A DNA stretch of 59,249 bases from Acidobacteriaceae bacterium (GTDB lineage Bacteria; Acidobacteriota; Terriglobia; Terriglobales; Acidobacteriaceae). The notes beneath the pieces were generated by a model, which saw only the letters and a program-made list of their open reading frames with translations, was not told the origin of the DNA and ran no database searches. The position numbers and the translations under genes were made by a program. The stretch is from NCBI GenBank assembly GCA_003138365.1, contig PLFY01000216.1, positions 1 through 59,249 of the forward strand, written 5' to 3'. Positions 16,050 through 27,398 of this stretch are shown here, in pieces. Positions within the stretch are counted from its first letter, which is position 1, and each line of letters opens with the position of its first letter.

Positions 16050-16838
16050 TCATGACCTGCCTCCTGGGGATTGCGCGGGCGGGGCCGCCGTTCCCAGGAC
16101 GACCAAATCGACTCGCCGATTTATTTTGCGGCCCTCGGGTGTTGCATTGTCGGCTAAAGGCCGGTACTGCCCGTAGCCGCACACCGAGATCCTCTTCGGG
16201 TCGAAGCCAGCATCATTCACAAGCAGGAGCAGCACAGCCATCCCGCGCGCCGTCGAGAGTTCCCAATTGGAGTGGAACTGCGCGCTATGGATTGGCTGAT
16301 CGTCGGAATGCCCCTCAATGCGAAGCTCCAACCCACGTTGCGACAAGATCCTGCCGATCTTCTCAATCTTCTTGTCCGCGCCCGGCAGCAGGACGGCCTG
16401 GCCGCTGTTGAAGAATCCGAGTTCTCGCAGGCTGATTACGAATCCCTCCGGGGTGATTCGCATCTCCATTTCCTTATTCCGAAGTTCCGCGCCGACGACC
16501 GACTCAAGCTGCCTTCGCAACGCGACGACATCGACTGGCGAAGTAGCCGCGTTGTCTTTCCGTGGATTTTCCAGACGGTCGGACGGTGTTCCAATCGTCG
16601 GATCGGGGACGATGTTGGGATAGGCAACGCCACTGTTGCTGGCCCCGCCGGAGGATGCGCCCAACTGCTGGAAGCCGACCTGGATAGCTTGAGAGAGTCT
16701 CTTGATCGTCAGGTTGTCCCGGTAGGAAGAAGCAAACAGGACAACAAACAGCGCGAAGAGCAGGGTCATGAAATCCGAGTAGGAGATCAGCCAGCGGTCC
16801 CTATTGGACGCCTCCTCAGTTTGTCTTCTCCTTCTCAT
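16050..16838 (-). CDS. motB: Flagellar stator protein MotB-like, first copy
   Basis: A 262-aa inner-membrane protein. One membrane helix (residues about 16-36) begins with SYSDFMTLLFALFVVLFAS; Asp22 is the proton-carrying residue of MotB. A Gly/Ser/Asn-rich linker follows. Residues about 125-250 are an OmpA-like peptidoglycan-binding domain (RIEGHSDDQPIHSAQFHSNWELSTARG, GYGQYRPLADN, NRRVDLVV). Its start overlaps the upstream motA-like stop by 4 bp (ATGA), so the two are translationally coupled. The first residues RRRRQ are strongly basic, as usual in MotB. Divergence from the second copy suggests a separate stator type, for example MotCD-like. Confidence 0.9.
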   Translation of the reverse strand: MRRRRQTEEASNRDRWLISYSDFMTLLFALFVVLFASSYRDNLTIKRLSQAIQVGFQQLGASSGGASNSGVAYPNIVPDPTIGTPSDRLENPRKDNAATSPVDVVALRRQLESVVGAELRNKEMEMRITPEGFVISLRELGFFNSGQAVLLPGADKKIEKIGRILSQRGLELRIEGHSDDQPIHSAQFHSNWELSTARGMAVLLLLVNDAGFDPKRISVCGYGQYRPLADNATPEGRKINRRVDLVVLGTAAPPAQSPGGRS

Positions 16839-17623
16839 CGACTGGCCACTTTCTTCAAAGCATGCGCGGGCCTATCAAAAAACTTTCCAAGTTGCAGCTC
16901 CAAAGCTCGGGGATGCACACCCTCGACGATCGACAACACTGCCTCAAGCGTCATCTCTTGAATCACTTGTTTTTCGCGCAGCCGAATTTTGAGCTTTCCG
17001 GCCCAGGGCAGGAAGAGGAGATTTGCCGATGCGACACCATAAATGGTGGCGACGAAGGCTACCGCGATGCCCTTGCCGACCTCATTCACATCCGAAAGCC
17101 GTTGCATCACCTGAATAAGGCCAAGAACCGCACCGAGAATCCCAATGGTTGGCGCGAACCCGCCCGCAGCCTCGAAAACCTTCGGGATTTTCTCATCCTT
17201 TTCGCCTTGATAGTCAAGTTGAACTTCCATCATTTTGCGCAGGTCGACGGGCTTGACACCATCGATTGCCAGCATGAGGCTCTCTCTCAGGAAAGGATCT
17301 CGAATCCTCTCCAACTCCGCATCGAGGGAAGCGATCCCTTCCTTGCGAGCCTTGTATGCAAATCGGAGCAGATTCTGGACCAGGTTGTCGGGCTCTGGGT
17401 CCGCATGCAGCAGGACATCCATAAGCTGTCGCACCGCCTGGATCACGATGCGAAGTGGAAATTGGACCATGACGGCGCCCAGGGTGCCGCCGAAGACAAT
17501 CAGGGCAGCGGTCGGCTGCAGCATTTGTGGCAACTTGACGCCCTCGAGCATCAAGCCTATCCCGAGTCCAGCAAACGCGAGGGTTAACCCCCCGATAGTG
17601 CCTTTGTCAATAGTCGTCTTCAC
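16835..17623 (-). CDS. motA: Flagellar stator protein MotA-like, first copy
   Basis: A 262-aa protein with four membrane helices (GGLTLAFAGLGIGLMLEG, AALIVFGGTLGAVMVQFPL, APTIGILGAVLGLIQVMQRL, GIAVAFVATIYGVASANLLFLPWAGKL). The cytoplasmic loop between helices 2 and 3 carries the charged surface (residues about 80-150) that acts on FliG, and the conserved Pro of helix 3 is present. Length and helix pattern match the short MotA/PomA/MotC type. The start is GTG 17623 with a weak ribosome site. A near-perfect FliA promoter lies about 140 bp upstream. Confidence 0.9.
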   Translation of the reverse strand: MKTTIDKGTIGGLTLAFAGLGIGLMLEGVKLPQMLQPTAALIVFGGTLGAVMVQFPLRIVIQAVRQLMDVLLHADPEPDNLVQNLLRFAYKARKEGIASLDAELERIRDPFLRESLMLAIDGVKPVDLRKMMEVQLDYQGEKDEKIPKVFEAAGGFAPTIGILGAVLGLIQVMQRLSDVNEVGKGIAVAFVATIYGVASANLLFLPWAGKLKIRLREKQVIQEMTLEAVLSIVEGVHPRALELQLGKFFDRPAHALKKVASR

Positions 17624-20647: not shown

Positions 20648-20986
20648 CTAGTCAAGAAGTTGGGGCCCCGGCCTGTTCTGGGGCTCTACCGCTAAAGCAA
20701 CAAAATGAGCCATCATATTGCGCTCTTCTTCCGATTTATATATGAACTCCAAAACGCTCCATTTTGATTCCGAACGCACTAAGCGCGCGTCGAGTTCAAC
20801 AGTCATGCCCTTGTTGCTAACTTCTACAACCCCGTTACAATTCTCCAGGGGATGCTTGATAGCCTCCAGCACCATGCCGTCTTCGCTTATCTCCCTGCAT
20901 CGTGCCGCCACGGTCGAGTTCGCGATGGTGAGCTGAACCAGAAGATCGACAGGAAATCTTGGAGCCCGATAGATGAATTTCCGCAT
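20648..20986 (-). CDS. PilZ-domain protein (probable c-di-GMP effector)
   Basis: A 112-aa single-domain protein. The PilZ signature is present in diverged form: a basic YRAPRFPVDLLVQL segment near residue 6 (corresponding to RxxxR) and REISEDGMVLEA near residue 30 (corresponding to D/NxSxxG), followed by beta-barrel strands. PilZ proteins bind cyclic di-GMP, and those near flagella, such as YcgR, act as brakes on MotA or FliG. It converges on the second motAB operon, which supports such a role. The start codon ATG 20986 lacks a strong ribosome site. Confidence 0.75.
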   Translation of the reverse strand: MRKFIYRAPRFPVDLLVQLTIANSTVAARCREISEDGMVLEAIKHPLENCNGVVEVSNKGMTVELDARLVRSESKWSVLEFIYKSEEERNMMAHFVALAVEPQNRPGPQLLD

Positions 20987-21303: not shown

Positions 21304-21319
21304 TGTGATTTGCGTCACA
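21304..21319. promoter_or_regulatory. CRP/FNR-type binding site upstream of the regulatory block
   Basis: TGTGATTTGCGTCACA is a perfect TGTGA-N6-TCACA palindrome, the consensus recognised by CRP. It lies about 110 bp before a 40-codon frame and 245 bp before the OmpR-type regulator. The surrounding 20987-21420 region holds no gene. Confidence 0.6.
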
Positions 21320-21420
21320 GGAAACGAATTTCTAGGAAATCTGGAATCAAGCGAGGTCATTACGAGTTTGGTGCGGCTTATTCGCAGTTTCGTTGAATTT
21401 TAAGAAAGCCGGGGGGTACT

Positions 21421-21543
21421 ATGGCCTTGCAAGCGAATAGCACTAAAGTAATCACGCGGACCAGCAAGATGGGCCGGCCGGGTGACTATTGTGTGGTGAA
21501 CAAGCGTAACCGAAATCGAATTGCAGGATACGCAGGTTTGTAG
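21421..21543 (+). CDS. Possible 40-aa small protein
   Basis: ATG 21421 is preceded by GGGGGG and opens a 40-codon frame (MALQANSTKV...RIAGYAGL) that ends 13 bp before the response regulator start. It is basic, has no membrane helix and matches no family I know. The strong ribosome site and its place between the CRP-type site and the regulator support a leader peptide or small protein. A chance frame cannot be excluded. Confidence 0.35.
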   Translation: MALQANSTKVITRTSKMGRPGDYCVVNKRNRNRIAGYAGL

Positions 21544-21556
21544 AAATAAGGGGCAA

Positions 21557-22303
21557 ATGATATCGGCATCGGCACAATACGAAGAACGAACCAACCTGGA
21601 CGCCAGGGTGTTCAACCCATACGCAGGCCGACATGTGCTGATCGTTGAAGATGATATTTCCTTGGCTAAGTTTCTCAGCGATGAACTTCGGGCAGAATCC
21701 TTCGCCGTCGATATGGCTCACGATGCCGAGGCGGCACTGGCAATGCTTGAGGAGGGCCGGCGGTGCGATCTGGTGATTCTCGATCTGAATCTCCCCAATC
21801 TTGACGGCATAAGTCTGCTGCAGCGCGTGAGGCCGCGCAGGCCGCGGATGCCGATGATCGTGCTATCGGCGCGGAGCCGGGTGGAGGACAAAGTCAGAGC
21901 GCTGCAGAACGGGGCGAATGATTATCTGGTAAAGCCGTTCTCTTTTCTCGAGCTTCTGGCGCGTGTCCAGGCGCTGTTACGACACAATTCCGGGCCCATC
22001 GACAACGTTTCCAAAGTGGGCGATCTTACGTTGTTCCGAGAGGAGCGCCTGGTTGAACGGAACGGCAGGCGGATCGATCTGACCCCCCGCGAATTTGCAG
22101 TTCTCGAGTATATGATGCGCAACGCCGGACGCTCAGTAGCGCGCGCGCAGCTCTTCGAGGAAGTGTGGAACATGCCGCACGATCCTTCTACGAATATCGT
22201 CGACGTGTACATGAAGTATGTGCGCGACAAGGTGGACCTTCCCGGGGAGCACAAGCTTACCCACACGATTCGAGGGATCGGCTATGTGCTCCGCGAAGAG
22301 TAA
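21557..22303 (+). CDS. OmpR/PhoB-family response regulator
   Basis: A 248-aa two-domain regulator. ATG 21557 follows AAGGGG; a TTG 36 bp upstream in the same frame lacks such a site. The receiver domain (residues about 25-140) is intact: acidic residues Glu31, Asp32 and Asp33, phosphoacceptor Asp76 in DLVILDLNLPNLDG, and the conserved Lys in DYLVKPF. A winged-helix DNA-binding domain follows (about 150-248, RIDLTPREFAVLEYMMRNAGRSVARAQLFEEVWN...GIGYVLRE). Its stop overlaps the next gene by 20 bp, so the two are likely a signalling pair. The targets are unknown. Confidence 0.9.
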   Translation: MISASAQYEERTNLDARVFNPYAGRHVLIVEDDISLAKFLSDELRAESFAVDMAHDAEAALAMLEEGRRCDLVILDLNLPNLDGISLLQRVRPRRPRMPMIVLSARSRVEDKVRALQNGANDYLVKPFSFLELLARVQALLRHNSGPIDNVSKVGDLTLFREERLVERNGRRIDLTPREFAVLEYMMRNAGRSVARAQLFEEVWNMPHDPSTNIVDVYMKYVRDKVDLPGEHKLTHTIRGIGYVLREE

Positions 22304-23048
22304 AGATGTGTTGACCAGCGAAGGTCCATGCGCTTGGATGGGCGCCGAAGCCGGCAGGTTCCATGCCAATCTGTCCTCCTGTCTCCATGCCATAGGTCAG
22401 CCGCTGACAGTCCTGCGCTGCACGGTCGCGGCCTCCGCTGTGCAGGGCATCACGGCTGAAAAGCAGCAAAGGTATTTGGGCACTTCGGCTGAGCAGGTGG
22501 AGCTTCTGTGCGGCCTGTTCGACTGCTTGCGGGAGCTTGTGGATTCAAGCCAGGCCGGCGGGGAGCGTTCACCCGTGGAGGTTTCGCAATTATTGTCCTT
22601 CGTCGTTGAAGATCAGATGCCTTCGCTTCAGGCATCTGGCTTGGCGATCGACGTAAGCATCCCAGCAGAGATCCATTCAACCATGCTGACAGATATGAAC
22701 AGATCGTTGATGGCGCTCACCTCGGTGCTCAAGATTGCAGCTTCGGTCTCTTCCCAAGGCGATGTGATCGAGGTGAGGGTGGCGCCCAAGAATGGTGGAG
22801 TTGAATTGATCGTCCAGAACGAGCGCGCCCAGCGAAGAAGCTTCACTTCGTTGGAGCGCCTAAGCCTGGCTGTGGCTGAGGCTAATATCCGGAGCCAGGA
22901 CGGAGACTACGTGTGCGTCGAAGACCCATTTCGTGTTTCATTCACGCTGCCGGTTCAGAATCCGGGGCACAATCGATTTCTGAATTTCGCCCAATTGAAG
23001 GGCAAGAGGGCTCGCTATGGTGCGCTGGCGGGCCAGCTTTGTTCATAA
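22284..23048 (+). CDS. Histidine-kinase-like protein without recognisable ATP site (phosphotransferase-like)
   Basis: A 254-aa protein starting at ATG 22284 inside the end of the regulator gene (GAGGG upstream). Residues about 27-95 resemble a two-helix dimerisation domain; HAIGQPLTVLR (His35) matches the H-box pattern H-x-x-x-x-P-L-T but lacks the usual acidic residue after His. The rest follows the HATPase fold in outline (LMALTSVLKIAASVS, then VELIVQN, then FRVSFTLPV), yet N-box, G1 and G2 motifs are missing. There is no sensor or membrane part. This matches histidine phosphotransferases of the ChpT kind rather than an active kinase; that role is inferred. Confidence 0.6.
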   Translation: MCSAKSKDVLTSEGPCAWMGAEAGRFHANLSSCLHAIGQPLTVLRCTVAASAVQGITAEKQQRYLGTSAEQVELLCGLFDCLRELVDSSQAGGERSPVEVSQLLSFVVEDQMPSLQASGLAIDVSIPAEIHSTMLTDMNRSLMALTSVLKIAASVSSQGDVIEVRVAPKNGGVELIVQNERAQRRSFTSLERLSLAVAEANIRSQDGDYVCVEDPFRVSFTLPVQNPGHNRFLNFAQLKGKRARYGALAGQLCS

Positions 23049-23850
23049 GATCGACGGCACGATCGGGCACAGGTTTCAAGGGAATCTTGACAATTGAGGA
23101 AGAGGAAGGAGAAAGGCATCATGGCAAGTACGGTTACGCAATTGGCCAGCCGCGGGGATCGAGATCCGATCGATGTGTTCATTGTCTGCCCCAACTCCAA
23201 GCTCCGTCAGAATCTGAATGACAAACTGAATCTTCCCCGTTGGAATGTGGTTCAGGCAGGAACGGGCGAAGGAGCGCTGCAGATGCTCCAGCAACATGGC
23301 GCCGACGACGGGATCCTTTTGCTTGATCCGAATCTGCCGGATCTGGGGCTCAATGACTTTCTCGACATCGTGGAAGTTCAGTATCCGAACCTTCGGCTCA
23401 TGACCCTGGACTCCGATACCGGGCAGTTGAAGTGTTCTTGAGCCAGTTTTGTTCACAACATCCGTTCCCAATTCAAGAGGGGATTCCGGTTTCCAATGCG
23501 GCTCTAAGAACTGGCAAAAGGAGAAAGGCTTCATGGCAAGTCTCGTCGCGCAATTCACACGTCAAGAAGATCGGATGCCAATCGATGTGTTCGTTGTCTG
23601 TCCCAACTCCAGGCTCCGCCAAGATCTGAATGAGAAGCTGGGTCTTCCCCGTTGGAATGTGATTCAGGCAGAAAGCGGCGCTGGAGCGCTTGAGTTGCTC
23701 CAAAAACATGGCTCTGACGATGGAATCCTCTTGCTTGATCCGAATCTGCCGGATCTTGAGCTGAATGAATTTCTCCGCATCGTAAAAGTTCGGTGTGCGA
23801 ACCTTCAGCTGATGACACTGAACTCCCACACTGGCCAGTTGCTGATCGGA
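23032..23850 (+). repeat. Tandem duplication of about 410 bp
   Basis: Unit 1 (about 23032-23441) and unit 2 (about 23442-23850) are similar end to end. Both begin with GCCAGYTTTGTTCA, both have AGGAGAAAGGCWTCATGGCAAGT at the gene start, and the start codons are 412 bp apart. The coding parts are roughly three-quarters identical by eye. Unit 2 continues into an AAA+ domain; unit 1 does not. Confidence 0.85.
23121..23441 (+). CDS. Stand-alone pseudo-receiver protein
   Basis: A 106-aa protein from ATG 23121 (AAAGG before it). It is a near copy of the first 100 residues of the next gene. The receiver fold is recognisable, with LLLDPNLPDLGLNDF carrying Asp69 at the phosphoacceptor position. The acidic pair that binds Mg2+ is replaced by CPN (23-25), and the switch Thr/Lys region is missing because the frame stops after DSDTGQLKCS. 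It is probably not phosphorylated and may act as a dimerisation partner or decoy for the next protein. It could also be a decaying duplicate. Confidence 0.65.
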   Translation: MASTVTQLASRGDRDPIDVFIVCPNSKLRQNLNDKLNLPRWNVVQAGTGEGALQMLQQHGADDGILLLDPNLPDLGLNDFLDIVEVQYPNLRLMTLDSDTGQLKCS

Positions 23851-24711
23851 GGCGCATCGCCAACCCCAATATCGACGCGGCTTGCCGAATTGATCAACCG
23901 CGGAGTCGCCGCGGCTCCGAGACCCTCCCCCGATAATGATGGAGAGCCTTTTCGCGACGTGGCTGACGCGAGGCTTAATCTGCGCGGCATGATTGGCGAT
24001 TCCGAGCGGATGAAGCGGACCTACCATTTGACGCGCATGGTCGCGGTCCGCGACACAACAGTGTTGGTCACGGGCGAAAGCGGTACGGGCAAAGAGCTCA
24101 TCGCGCAGGAGATCCATTTGATCAGCCCGCGGCGAAAGCAGCCGTTTGTGGTGGTGAATTGTTCCGCTATCCCTGAGACACTGCTCGAGGCAGAGCTCTT
24201 CGGCTATGTAAAGGGCGCGTTTACCGGTGCGGTTCAATCGCGCATCGGACGGATACATTCAGCGCACGGCGGCACACTGTTTCTCGACGAGATAGGCGAC
24301 ATGCCGTTGTCGCTGCAAAGCAAGATTCTGAGATTTCTGGAACAGGGAGAAGTGCAGCGTTTGGGAGGACTCGACAATCTGAAGGTGGACGTTCGGGTGG
24401 TTGCAGCGACCAATGCCGACCTCAAAAAGCTCATCTCTCAACAGCAATTTCGTGAGGATCTCTATTACCGCGTTGCCATCTTTCCCATCCAACTGCCGCC
24501 ACTGCGCGAGCGGATGAGCGATCTGGAGGAATTGGCGGAGTGGTTTGTTGCCAAGTATAGCCGCGGAATTTCGCTGAGCGGCGAGGCCTTGCAAATGTTG
24601 CAGCAGCATCACTGGCCGGGGAATGTGAGAGAGTTGCGCAACGTGATCGAGCGGGCAACGGTATTAGTTGGAGCAGGGCGAGAAATCAAGTCCGAACACA
24701 TCTTTTTGTAG
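23533..24711 (+). CDS. Sigma-54-dependent activator with pseudo-receiver and no DNA-binding domain
   Basis: A 392-aa protein starting at ATG 23533 after AAGGAG. Residues 15-100 are an atypical receiver (Asp69 kept, acidic pocket replaced by CPN). A Pro-rich linker leads to a complete sigma-54 AAA+ domain: Walker A GESGTGK (181-187), the sigma-54 contact loop GAFTGA, Walker B GGTLFLDEIGD, and PPLRERMSD. The protein ends at REIKSEHIFL, right after the AAA+ lid, so the usual Fis-type HTH is missing; the following bases encode none. FlgR of Helicobacter is a known flagellar precedent for such a truncation. It probably activates RpoN from solution, perhaps in hetero-oligomers with the FlrC-like protein. 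Confidence 0.85.
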   Translation: MASLVAQFTRQEDRMPIDVFVVCPNSRLRQDLNEKLGLPRWNVIQAESGAGALELLQKHGSDDGILLLDPNLPDLELNEFLRIVKVRCANLQLMTLNSHTGQLLIGGASPTPISTRLAELINRGVAAAPRPSPDNDGEPFRDVADARLNLRGMIGDSERMKRTYHLTRMVAVRDTTVLVTGESGTGKELIAQEIHLISPRRKQPFVVVNCSAIPETLLEAELFGYVKGAFTGAVQSRIGRIHSAHGGTLFLDEIGDMPLSLQSKILRFLEQGEVQRLGGLDNLKVDVRVVAATNADLKKLISQQQFREDLYYRVAIFPIQLPPLRERMSDLEELAEWFVAKYSRGISLSGEALQMLQQHHWPGNVRELRNVIERATVLVGAGREIKSEHIFL

Positions 24712-24774
24712 TTCAGGTTCCTATTGTGGGCAGGCTTTTCCAGTTTGGCACTCATCGTGCTACTAGATAGGCAA

Positions 24775-26034
24775 ATGCTGCCCGGTTCTCATCTTGTTCC
24801 AATAAATGGCGTCGCGCCTCCCCCTCTGCACAACCAGGGGATGCTGGCCGACGCCTTTTCCGAGTTCATATCCGCGTCGTCGTTGCTGGAGGCGTCTTAC
24901 CGCGACCTGCAACAGGAAGTTGCACACCTCGGATCCGAATTGGCGCAGCGCAACGCCTCTCTGACCAGAAGCCTGGCAGAGAACGATCGGATGCGCGCAG
25001 CCCTGCAGCAAATCATCGATTCGATGCCCTGCGGCGTTCTCGTTCTGGATGCCGCCGAAGCCATCGTGACGATCAACCCGGAAGGGCGCAGGCTGCTGGA
25101 GCTTGGAAATGCGCATGTGCGGAATCTGCGCGAGCTCTCCGCGGTTAGCCGGATTGACTTCGAGTCTCTGGCAGGCAAGTCGGAAGATCGCCTCGACAGC
25201 GAACTTTGCATTCCATCCGCGGCGGGAAAGCGCTGGTTGGCAATCGGCAACCGGAAGCTCCGTTGCCCATCCGCGGACCGGGAGTCGGGCGATCGGAGGA
25301 CGCCGCTGGAAAGCGTTTGGATTCTCCGCGACATCACAGCTTACAAGCAGGCCGAGCGGGAACGCGAGTCGGCGCGGAACACCATGGCGTTGGCCGAGAT
25401 GTCGACGATTCTGGCCCACGAGATTAGGAATCCGTTAGAGAGCATGGAATTATTTGCCGGCTTGATCGCCGAAGATCCGGCACAGACGTCCCATTGGGTC
25501 TCGCACCTCCGCGCCGGCATTCGCATGCTTTCGGGAACCGTAAACAATGTACTGAGCATTCATAGTGGAGGCAATCCCAATCTTGCGCCGGTGAATTTGA
25601 CTGCCTGCGTTCGCAGCGGAGTGGAATTTGTGCGCCCGATCGCGGAGCAAGCCGGTGTGACGCTCCTGTTGGTCGAAGGCGATGACAGCCTTGTGATTCA
25701 GGGCAACGAGAACATGCTTCGCCAGATGATCCTGAATCTCATTTGCAATGCGATTCGCCACACACCCGCTGGCGGAAAGATCGACGTATCGACCAGGAGG
25801 AAATCGTGGCAAGGAGCCATCCACGCGCATCTCGATATCAAAGACACTGGCTGCGGAATTCCCGCAAATCTGATTGATCGCGTCTTCGATGCCGGATTCA
25901 GCGGGGGAGGCGACACACCGGGCCTCGGCCTGGCCGTCTGCAAGCGCCTTATGAACCAGCACCGCGGAGAGATTCGCGTTTCAAGCCGCGTGAACCGCGG
26001 CAGCACCTTCCAATTGGAGTTCCCGGCCTTATGA
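24775..26034 (+). CDS. flrB: PAS sensor histidine kinase, FlrB/NtrB-like
   Basis: A cytoplasmic kinase of 419 aa from ATG 24775 (AGG upstream; a TTG at 24724 is possible). A coiled-coil N-terminus (about 40-85) precedes a PAS domain (about 85-190, IIDSMPCGVLVLDAAEAIVTINPEG). The H-box is LAHEIRNPLESMELF with His215, followed by N-box NLICNAIRHTP, G1 KDTGCGIP and G2 GGDTPGLGLAVCKRL, all intact. There is no membrane segment, as in FlrB/FleS kinases that sense flagellar assembly. Its stop overlaps the cognate regulator's start by 4 bp. The gene name is assigned by analogy of context and architecture. Confidence 0.88.
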   Translation: MLPGSHLVPINGVAPPPLHNQGMLADAFSEFISASSLLEASYRDLQQEVAHLGSELAQRNASLTRSLAENDRMRAALQQIIDSMPCGVLVLDAAEAIVTINPEGRRLLELGNAHVRNLRELSAVSRIDFESLAGKSEDRLDSELCIPSAAGKRWLAIGNRKLRCPSADRESGDRRTPLESVWILRDITAYKQAERERESARNTMALAEMSTILAHEIRNPLESMELFAGLIAEDPAQTSHWVSHLRAGIRMLSGTVNNVLSIHSGGNPNLAPVNLTACVRSGVEFVRPIAEQAGVTLLLVEGDDSLVIQGNENMLRQMILNLICNAIRHTPAGGKIDVSTRRKSWQGAIHAHLDIKDTGCGIPANLIDRVFDAGFSGGGDTPGLGLAVCKRLMNQHRGEIRVSSRVNRGSTFQLEFPAL

Positions 26035-27398
26035 CGAGAGATGAAGCGCCTTCGGTAATGGTGGTAGACGACGAACCGGGCATTCGCACCGCGCTCCGCG
26101 CCAACTTTCTTCGTCACGGATGGCGGGTTGAGACTGCCAGCGGCGTTCGTGACGCGATCCTCAAGCTCGAAGACCGTGAGTTCGACCTGGTGGTGACGGA
26201 TATTCGCATGCCGGATGGGACGGGCTTGGAAGTGATGCGCTCGGCCCGTCGTGCCGCTCCGGGAGCAGCCATCATCTTGCTCACGGCATACGGCTCGGTT
26301 CCGGATGCGGTGAGCGCCATGCGCGACGGGGCCCTGGATTATTTGACCAAGCCGATTTCATTCGATCAATTGCAGGCAACGGCCGCGCAGGTCATGCATC
26401 GGGCCAAACAAGCTGAGATCGCCGATCCCAGCTCGGCGGGAGACATTGTTGGGCGCGCTCCGACATTGCTTCGCGCTATCCAGCGTGCTCGAGCGGCAGC
26501 CAGCACAGGCGCCGATGTTCTGATTGAAGCGGAAAGCGGAACAGGCAAGGAATTGCTGGCGCGATTCATACACGATTCGAGCGATCGAAGCCGCAAGCCC
26601 TTTATTGCCTTGAATTGTGCCGCCGTCCCCGAATCTCTGCTGGAGAGCGAGTTGTTCGGCCATGGCCGGGGCGCATTTACCGGCGCAATCGCTGCCAAGC
26701 CGGGCAAGTTTGAACTGGCGGATGGCGGGACGATTCTGCTCGACGAAATTGGAGAAATGCCGCTCCACCTGCAACCCAAACTCCTGCGAGCCCTGCAGGA
26801 ACGCGAGTTTGAAAGACTTGGCGAATCCCGATGCGTGCGCGTAGATATACGGGTGATCGCCACGACCAACGTCTCACTCGCCTCGATGGTCGAGCGCGGT
26901 GATTTTCGCGGCGATCTGTACTATCGGCTCAATGTGATTCCTCTCTCGCTGCCGCCGCTGCGTGAGCGCCGGGAAGACATTCCTGTTCTTGCCCATCATT
27001 TCGCCGCAAAGTTTGCCCGTCAGTTGGGAACCGAGCCTCCCCGGCTTCATGCGGAGTTCCTCAGCCGCTTGCAGTCGCACCACTGGCCCGGGAATGTGCG
27101 GGAACTGGCCAACTTTATGCGGCGGGTTCTCACCCTGAGCGGAACAATCGAAATCGATGGCGGCTGTTTCGAAACAGAGTTCCAGGGAACCTCGAGATCT
27201 TCGCTTGCATCTCCAGTCGCGTTTTCAGTTCCTGCCGCCGGTACTCCAATCCGCCAGGTCGAACGGCTGCACTTGGAGAGCACCTTGGCGCTGACGGATG
27301 GGAATCGAACCCACGCGGCCGAGATGCTGGGCATCAGCCTGAGAACTCTGCGAAACAAGATCCGTGAATACGGTCTTCCACCCAGGAGGTACGCATAA
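26031..27398 (+). CDS. flrC: NtrC-family sigma-54 response regulator, FlrC-like
   Basis: A 455-aa activator with three full domains. The receiver (about 7-120) has Asp13, Asp14, phosphoacceptor Asp57 in VVTDIRMPDGTG, and a Lys in LTKPIS. The AAA+ domain (about 140-375) has Walker A ESGTGK (168-173, with Ala instead of the first Gly), GAFTGA and TILLDEIGE. The C-terminal Fis-type HTH (about 405-450) reads ALTDGNRTHAAEMLGISLRTLRNKIREYG. It lies directly before flgB and probably activates the sigma-54 promoters found before fliK and flgF. It is the only activator here that can bind DNA specifically. Confidence 0.9.
   Translation: MTRDEAPSVMVVDDEPGIRTALRANFLRHGWRVETASGVRDAILKLEDREFDLVVTDIRMPDGTGLEVMRSARRAAPGAAIILLTAYGSVPDAVSAMRDGALDYLTKPISFDQLQATAAQVMHRAKQAEIADPSSAGDIVGRAPTLLRAIQRARAAASTGADVLIEAESGTGKELLARFIHDSSDRSRKPFIALNCAAVPESLLESELFGHGRGAFTGAIAAKPGKFELADGGTILLDEIGEMPLHLQPKLLRALQEREFERLGESRCVRVDIRVIATTNVSLASMVERGDFRGDLYYRLNVIPLSLPPLRERREDIPVLAHHFAAKFARQLGTEPPRLHAEFLSRLQSHHWPGNVRELANFMRRVLTLSGTIEIDGGCFETEFQGTSRSSLASPVAFSVPAAGTPIRQVERLHLESTLALTDGNRTHAAEMLGISLRTLRNKIREYGLPPRRYA

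Follow-up and report, generated by a model that had tools for sequence, protein, structure and literature searches.

Organization of the locus

The stretch analyzed here (the window) is the 59,249-nt contig PLFY01000216.1 of an Acidobacteriaceae bacterium (assembly GCA_003138365.1; contig C59 of genome G000, which comprises 4.78 Mb in 230 contigs), and the element in question is a kinase-like protein, designated KDH below, encoded directly downstream of an OmpR-type response regulator in a flagellar gene cluster. From left to right, the genes are MotA, MotB, a divergent PilZ gene, the OmpR regulator, KDH, a stand-alone pseudo-receiver, a sigma-54 activator, an FlrB-like kinase, an FlrC-like regulator, FlgB, FlgC, FliE, and FliF; the Flg and Fli names are presumptive, resting on sequence and gene order. 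A previous reading of the letters without database searches (the sequence-only reading) had singled out the four genes from OmpR to the activator, with a CRP-type palindrome upstream, as a possible single circuit built around a ChpT-like phosphotransfer hub. The features concerned are the following:

21304..21319, no strand: perfect CRP-type palindrome TGTGATTTGCGTCACA, upstream of the OmpR gene
21557..22303, + strand: OmpR-type response regulator (Pfam), with complete receiver pocket (E,D / D / S / K) and winged helix
22284..23048, + strand: KDH, a 254-aa soluble, kinase-dead histidine kinase homolog with His35 in LHAIGQPLTV; DHp hairpin at residues 17-90 and ATP-less Bergerat-like domain at residues 95-225
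23121..23441, + strand: stand-alone pseudo-receiver, 106 aa, from ATG 23121 to stop 23441; a partial copy of the N-terminal part of the sigma-54 activator that follows
23533..24711, + strand: sigma-54 activator, 392 aa, with a pseudo-receiver lacking the acid pair, an AAA+ domain with GAFTGA, and no helix-turn-helix (HTH) domain
24724..26034, + strand: FlrB-like sensor kinase (Pfam), with PAS, HisKA, and intact HATPase_c
26031..27398, + strand: FlrC-like NtrC-type regulator, with intact receiver (DD/D/T/K), AAA+, and Fis HTH

The OmpR reading frame opens with TTG at 21521, ATG 21557 being the likelier start, and the KDH frame starts with an ATG and overlaps the OmpR stop codon.

A histidine kinase homolog without ATP-binding boxes

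The KDH protein had no Pfam match at E values up to 1. The structural comparison with ChpT and histidine kinases that the sequence-only reading had called for returned a kinase fold (AlphaFold model with a predicted local distance difference test score, pLDDT, of 89), with the DivL and RetS cores among the structural matches; the ChpT structure 4fpp is not among the 50 structural matches listed, and Spo0B is not among the PDB profile matches at E 0.1, absences that exclude nothing. Conservation was read from an alignment (A3) of 56 sequences, made up of 24 of the 58 KDH homolog proteins and 32 proteins from the loci, with P0056-P0059, whose records begin just after the His, left out. The ATP boxes are missing throughout: the N-box Asn and the first Gly of the G2 box are each found in 0/56 rows, the column of the G1 Asp is a gap in 54, and two of the 56 rows are bare DHp hairpins lacking the ATP domain altogether. 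Thus, the claim that the protein keeps a candidate His35 without ATP-binding boxes was borne out, and the conserved ATP-binding fold at 22284-23048 that had been named as speaking against it did not appear with its boxes. HisKA is matched by 38/56 family members at E 0.1.

In contrast to the ATP boxes, the phospho-accepting His of the DHp domain is kept in all 56 genes chosen by profile and in all 64 short homologs, and it persists among sequences of as little as 16-18% identity; these two counts are unfiltered, whereas 30 of the 32 locus proteins in A3 were picked by an H...QP pattern, so that the invariance of the His in that alignment is partly by choice. The Gln at H+4 is conserved to the same degree as the His. 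Ratios of nonsynonymous to synonymous substitution (dN/dS) point to purifying selection, with values of 0.17-0.46 in eight of nine pairs and 0.64 in one, the pairs not all being independent and dS being near saturation in some.

Loss of KDH and decay of the OmpR phosphorylation pocket

The OmpR regulator is complete, as the sequence-only reading had it, with Pfam matches to the receiver (2.7e-28) and the winged helix (1.9e-23); against the NCBIfam CtrA equivalog NF045991 it scores 145.8 bits, below the cut-off of 350, and so falls outside CtrA. For each locus, the OmpR pocket was scored at its acid pair, phospho-Asp, Ser/Thr, and Lys, and the state of KDH was assigned by profile within ~400 nt of OmpR, so that a partner encoded farther away would escape notice; presence in L173 and L174 was assigned by reading their frames. 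Four loci were excluded from the resulting 80 OmpR rows (L158 and L160, which are the loci L026 and L024; L121, with OmpR cut by the contig end; L202, with OmpR broken), and loci with no OmpR gene in the fetched stretch were uncounted (e.g., L127, L164, L170, L175, L180-L182, and L211).

Within these 80 rows, the main set, the pocket is intact in 49/49 loci with full-length KDH, in 7/7 with a bare DHp hairpin, and in 10/24 where the partner is absent. An extension across the class gave 9/9 intact pockets with a partner (the complete kinase of L232 included) and 7/8 without (L234 damaged), and one to further loci gave 18/18 with a bare DHp hairpin and 2/2 with the partner absent. Over all sets, the pocket is intact in 83/83 loci that carry a partner gene and damaged in 15/34 that do not. 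The damage consists of acid-to-Ser/Gly/Gln/Ala replacements and of milder Asp-to-Glu changes in the acid pair (L108, L111). At the phospho-site itself, L112, L113, and L161, from two lineages that lost KDH, have Asp-to-Glu changes, which are possibly phosphomimetic.

In a midpoint-rooted tree of OmpR, made after removal of the pocket columns, Fitch parsimony (ties broken towards presence) placed six independent decay events, all on partner-less branches, which make up 42% of the tree length (0.42^6 = 0.005). As a control, the pocket of FlrC is intact in 16/16 readable partner-less loci (L110 is unreadable, and seven loci have no FlrC in the stretch). Decayed OmpR rows keep 97% of conserved DNA-binding columns and 87% of conserved receiver columns, and partner-less rows with an intact pocket keep 98% and 92%, respectively; the columns were chosen in KDH-bearing rows, which are therefore high by construction. 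Since the DNA-binding columns are better kept than those of the receiver and the FlrC pocket is intact, decayed OmpR appears, from these residues, to remain a DNA-binding protein while its switch is lost.

A series of forms in one gene slot

The slot between OmpR and the activator is filled differently among relatives. In L232 (family f11), the gene there encodes a kinase of 337 aa whose HATPase_c is complete (3.9e-30; NVIQNALEYS, DNGPGIP, GTGIGLA) and whose N-terminus, judged by eye, seems to span the membrane, and the slot genes of L237 and L221 have partly broken boxes (HATPase_c at 4e-7 and 2e-8). Across the order, ATP-less KDH is the common form (49/80 counted rows), and a bare DHp hairpin in a frame of 71-128 aa is all that remains in seven loci (L119, L126, L165, L203, L206, L208, and L212) and is found in 18/20 further loci. 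These hairpin frames, in both sets, always keep the His, L165 having QRL for QPL. With the L206 hairpin as query, 64 proteins of 54-109 aa were listed (its own record included), all 64 carrying H...QP; the His and QPLTVLQCRL are invariant in 28 that were aligned, and several occur in Edaphobacter or Granulicella records, where they are annotated as hypothetical.

At other loci, the KDH gene is gone and OmpR abuts the activator. No remnant was found within 900 nt downstream of OmpR in the 24 KDH-less loci, bar a chance HRKSQRIS in L124. When KDH was sought elsewhere in 13 KDH-less genomes, the short frames among the matches listed were one in G110 (C27), a KDH copy with its own OmpR (L209), and one in G272 (C7), the bare DHp hairpin of another locus (L212); the remaining matches listed were long frames, like ordinary kinases. 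We infer that the series reflects a direction of evolution, and KDH seems to have arisen independently, by reduction of a sensor kinase already resident there, because a complete kinase occupies the same slot in L232.

Conservation of the gene block

A contig scan with the single KDH protein as query gave no match, and one with the alignment as query gave six loci in named records, all Acidobacteriaceae and including Silvibacterium bohemicum. MotA-MotB-PilZ(-)-OmpR-KDH-activator is present in all six, and FlrB-FlrC-FlgB-FlgC-FliE-FliF follows in 5/5 not cut by a contig end. The order OmpR-(KDH)-activator-FlrB-FlrC-FlgB was found again in many genomes of the same order and, with KDH, in other families of the class (L218, L221, L223, L230, L231, and L236). 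The block is thus not unique to the subject genome and recurs across the class; the check on co-occurrence proposed in the sequence-only reading came out in its favor, with the gene order kept in flagellated relatives except for the stand-alone receiver.

The block can also be taken apart. In eight loci (L066, L067, L069, L072, L073, L075, L209, and L210), KDH stands beside OmpR without a sigma-54 gene in the vicinity, and OmpR lacks an adjacent KDH in 24/80 counted rows, the activator following OmpR in 23 of these 24; in one KDH-less row, L169, OmpR points away. What can be demonstrated as a unit is OmpR-KDH. A KDH-sigma-54 fusion in L174, considered as a "Rosetta stone," was rejected, its frame crossing a masked N stretch.

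In genus g33 (L066, L069, L072, L073, L209, and L210), the OmpR-KDH pair is separated from the flagellar genes; in L066 it is flanked by an amidohydrolase and a PGM gene, with CdaA (DAC) close by. The sigma-54 activator of these six genomes has remained beside FlrB/FlrC, on different contigs from the pair (L180, L182, L181, L186, L192, and L191). FliA-like sigma-70 genes (regions 2 and 4, with region 3 in L075) adjoin the triad or pair at L063:1625-2416 and L075:10671-11540, loci with no FlrB/FlrC at that spot. The subject genome has a second flagellar cluster (C25, L214:6795-12061) with OmpR (intact pocket), an HTH-less activator of 446 aa, FlgB, FlgC, FliE, and FliF; no KDH and no FlrB/FlrC were seen in the L214 stretch examined. 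Two FliF genes also occur in at least five relatives (G008, G175, G202, G220, and G251).

The sigma-54 activator and the stand-alone receiver

The activator of the window has an intact GAFTGA and CP in place of the DD acid pair, and it ends 33 codons (stop included) past the start of WPGN, compared to 105 in FlrC, confirming its description as an activator with a defective receiver and no DNA-binding domain. All 40 activators with a readable C-terminus end at most ~33 residues from the lid end, which by length leaves no room for a Fis-type HTH, and 7/7 inspected, that of the second cluster of G000 included, end 34-40 codons after WPGN; no HTH is given in the precomputed Pfam column among the 120 activator matches listed. 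The acid pair is absent from 41/41 activator receivers (the window's included), and the phospho-site Asp is kept in 40/41 (LLLDPNLPD). Since its receiver lacks the acid pair, the activator is probably not phosphorylatable, and it is best read as a co-transcribed flagellar activator acting from solution. A direct phospho-link between activator and KDH is not supported, because the OmpR-KDH pair stands without the activator in eight loci and because of the missing acid pair.

The stand-alone receiver shares 81% nucleotide identity over 326 nt with the start of the activator gene and is a partial tandem copy of it. A search of 298 genomes with the activator N-terminus gave two side-by-side matches in G000 alone, and no such copy was seen in other annotated loci. 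Its description as a receiver without its acidic pocket holds for the acid pair; the phospho-site Asp itself is kept. As a relay element it was rejected, being a private duplicate outside the conserved module.

Promoter region and neighboring genes

The palindrome noted upstream of OmpR is indeed perfect: TGTGA-N6-TCACA at 21304-21319 is the sole perfect CRP site of the window, where sites with at most one mismatch number two against ~1.4 expected (five shuffles). CRP-type sites with one or two mismatches lie upstream of OmpR in 7/31 scanned relatives (L022, L024, L026, L058, L118, L123, and L124), some at other distances, and no such site (up to two mismatches) was found in the other 24; given this, the case for a conserved control element is weak. 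One simple pattern gave no sigma-54 promoter upstream of OmpR in the window or the 31 relatives. The PilZ-domain gene between MotB and OmpR (20648-20986, - strand) is present in 6/6 named-record loci (L022-L027) and suggests cyclic di-GMP input at the flagellar/OmpR locus. Another MotA/MotB-like pair lies on the minus strand of the window at 16050-17623, as it does in several relatives.

Comparison with known systems

The OmpR-type regulator CtrA drives flagellar genes, and the dimeric phosphotransferases ChpT and Spo0B resemble histidine kinases, Spo0B, the Bacillus sporulation phosphotransferase, having a kinase-like C-terminal domain and serving a different pathway from KDH; intermediates between the two kinds of protein are, to our knowledge, rare. 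According to PMC3433190, ChpT controls CtrA by phosphorylation, and Caulobacter ChpT (4fpp), like KDH, is soluble and combines a DHp hairpin bearing one His with a non-ATP-binding Bergerat-like domain, a Pro at H+5, and a replaced ATP lid. In contrast to ChpT, KDH is encoded beside its regulator in a flagellar cluster and shows a reduction series down to a bare hairpin. By the sequence test, KDH falls outside the ChpT family: at E 0.1, PF10090 (HPTransfase) was matched by none of 56 members, two distant relatives at the class level giving sub-cut-off matches (E 0.012 and 0.021). The succession of forms in a single slot likewise suggests that KDH descended separately. Thus, the likeness to a ChpT-like hub holds for the ATP-less kinase fold, the conserved His, and the evolutionary tie to OmpR, and fails for the family. 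By analogy, KDH would work most like ChpT, as an ATP-less kinase fold whose His shuttle serves a transcription regulator.

KDH also resembles HisKA sensor kinases of the HExxQPL type in its fold, its H-box, and the position of its gene after an OmpR regulator, the L232 protein being a complete one in the slot; unlike them, it has no ATP boxes, no sensor or membrane part was seen, and the H+1 acid is mostly lost. The block recalls the order FlrA/FleQ-FlrB/FleS-FlrC/FleR in placing a sigma-54 activator with a degenerate receiver directly before the FlrB/FlrC pair; FlrA and FleQ carry an HTH, whereas the activator here does not, and an OmpR-KDH pair is added in front. Another regulator, FlgR, is also used in flagellar control. 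In PMC7175178, FlgR and CtcC are given as group 5 bacterial enhancer-binding proteins, with receiver and AAA+ domains and no HTH; the activator is like them in its AAA+ domain with GAFTGA and its lack of an HTH, and unlike them in its receiver, which without the acid pair would, judged from residues, not be phosphorylatable.

Interpretation

Because the OmpR pocket decays only where the partner is missing, KDH is read, from comparative sequence data, as a kinase-dead sensor kinase derivative that probably serves as the dedicated histidine phospho-partner of the upstream OmpR-type regulator (rough probability, 0.62). A KDH dimer would form a four-helix bundle whose His would accept phosphoryl groups from the receiver of another (hybrid) kinase and would pass them to the OmpR Asp, or drain them back; OmpR would then set expression of the flagellar cluster. 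The chances are about even for a broader proposal, that of an acidobacterial flagellar switch found throughout the class: without leaving its slot, a sensor kinase would have lost first its sensor and ATPase and finally everything but a bare DHp hairpin of ~70-130 aa, and would have become the dedicated histidine phosphotransfer protein of one OmpR regulator. This would be an independent origin, preserved step by step, of phosphotransferases of the ChpT/Spo0B type, in which loss of KDH frees OmpR from phosphorylation, the Asp-to-Glu changes of two lineages included.

Phosphatase activity towards OmpR is ranked below transfer as the role of KDH, since the His is conserved and the pocket would not be expected to relax if a phosphatase were all that was lost. 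On this reading, which is unlikely, KDH and the bare hairpins would be dedicated OmpR~P phosphatases, with another kinase or acetyl phosphate charging OmpR and the Gln at H+4 positioning water. In its favor, the Gln is as conserved as the His, and in EnvZ the DHp domain alone can suffice for dephosphorylation. According to PMC3510030, the H+1 acid is dispensable for phosphatase activity, whereas the usual H+4 residue of HisKA phosphatases is T or N, not Q. A phosphatase has no obvious need for a His kept in 56/56 and 64/64 sequences, and its loss leaves OmpR phosphorylatable, which does not account for a decaying pocket unless the kinase that charges OmpR is lost as well. A pseudokinase scaffold that holds or sequesters OmpR without phosphoryl chemistry is a still less probable account; DivL and RetS, which turned up with their cores in the structural comparison, function mostly without kinase chemistry, but a scaffold explains neither a His kept at 16-18% identity and in bare hairpins nor a coupled decay that hits exactly the catalytic pocket of OmpR.

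The single circuit of four genes feeding sigma-54 activators, as proposed in the sequence-only reading, is improbable and is not supported, as stated, by the comparison. OmpR, KDH, and the HTH-less activator are co-oriented and adjacent in most KDH loci, and the activator receiver keeps its Asp in 40/41; yet the acid pair is missing in 41/41, OmpR-KDH does without a nearby sigma-54 gene in eight loci, KDH is missing in 24/80 OmpR rows, 23 of which have the activator, and the stand-alone receiver is a private local duplicate. Very improbable is a decaying, functionless kinase remnant, for which the successive loss of sensor, ATP boxes, and whole CA domain, the absence of the gene from many loci, and one relaxed pair (dN/dS of 0.64) could be cited; the other eight pairs (0.17-0.46), the conserved His and Gln, the open frames of 58 and 64 proteins (the query's own record in each), and pocket damage seen solely where KDH is missing speak against it.

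Several observations weigh against a phospho-partner role or its evolutionary framing. No donor kinase for KDH was found; G000 encodes 41 receiver domains (E 1e-10), and Hpt was matched five times, once by a frame of 129 aa. HATPase_c is weakly matched by 3/56 members (best 2.9e-4), and 6/58 homolog proteins lack the His, each because the recorded protein begins after it. KDH changes faster than OmpR (dN/dS of 0.17-0.64 versus 0.03-0.18). The pocket is intact in 19/34 partner-less loci, including L214 of the subject genome, so either other kinases can serve OmpR or the losses are recent; the Fisher test on the main set (p = 1.3e-9) ignores relatedness; and the correlation has no direction, so that the pocket could have decayed before the gene was lost. 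The kinase of L232 may be a later replacement and not the ancestral form, and L211:6029-6604 carries a KDH-like frame (191 aa) with no OmpR match in 13 kb, the sole orphan seen. Transfer and phosphatase activity fit the comparative data almost equally, and an amide at H+4 can serve a phosphatase (RapH-Q47, NarX DxxxQ; PMC3510030).

A search of the literature on acidobacterial flagellar regulation (titles and abstract starts, with few subscription papers and no bioRxiv preprints) found no publication describing the OmpR-KDH module, without any claim of its absence from print, and found no study of flagellar control in this phylum. One gene slot here shows the whole series from complete kinase to bare hairpin to absent gene, and the natural experiment of partner loss and pocket decay names the partner of KDH ahead of bench work. 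A function is thereby proposed for proteins called hypothetical in Edaphobacter and Granulicella records, which makes it testable in cultured relatives.

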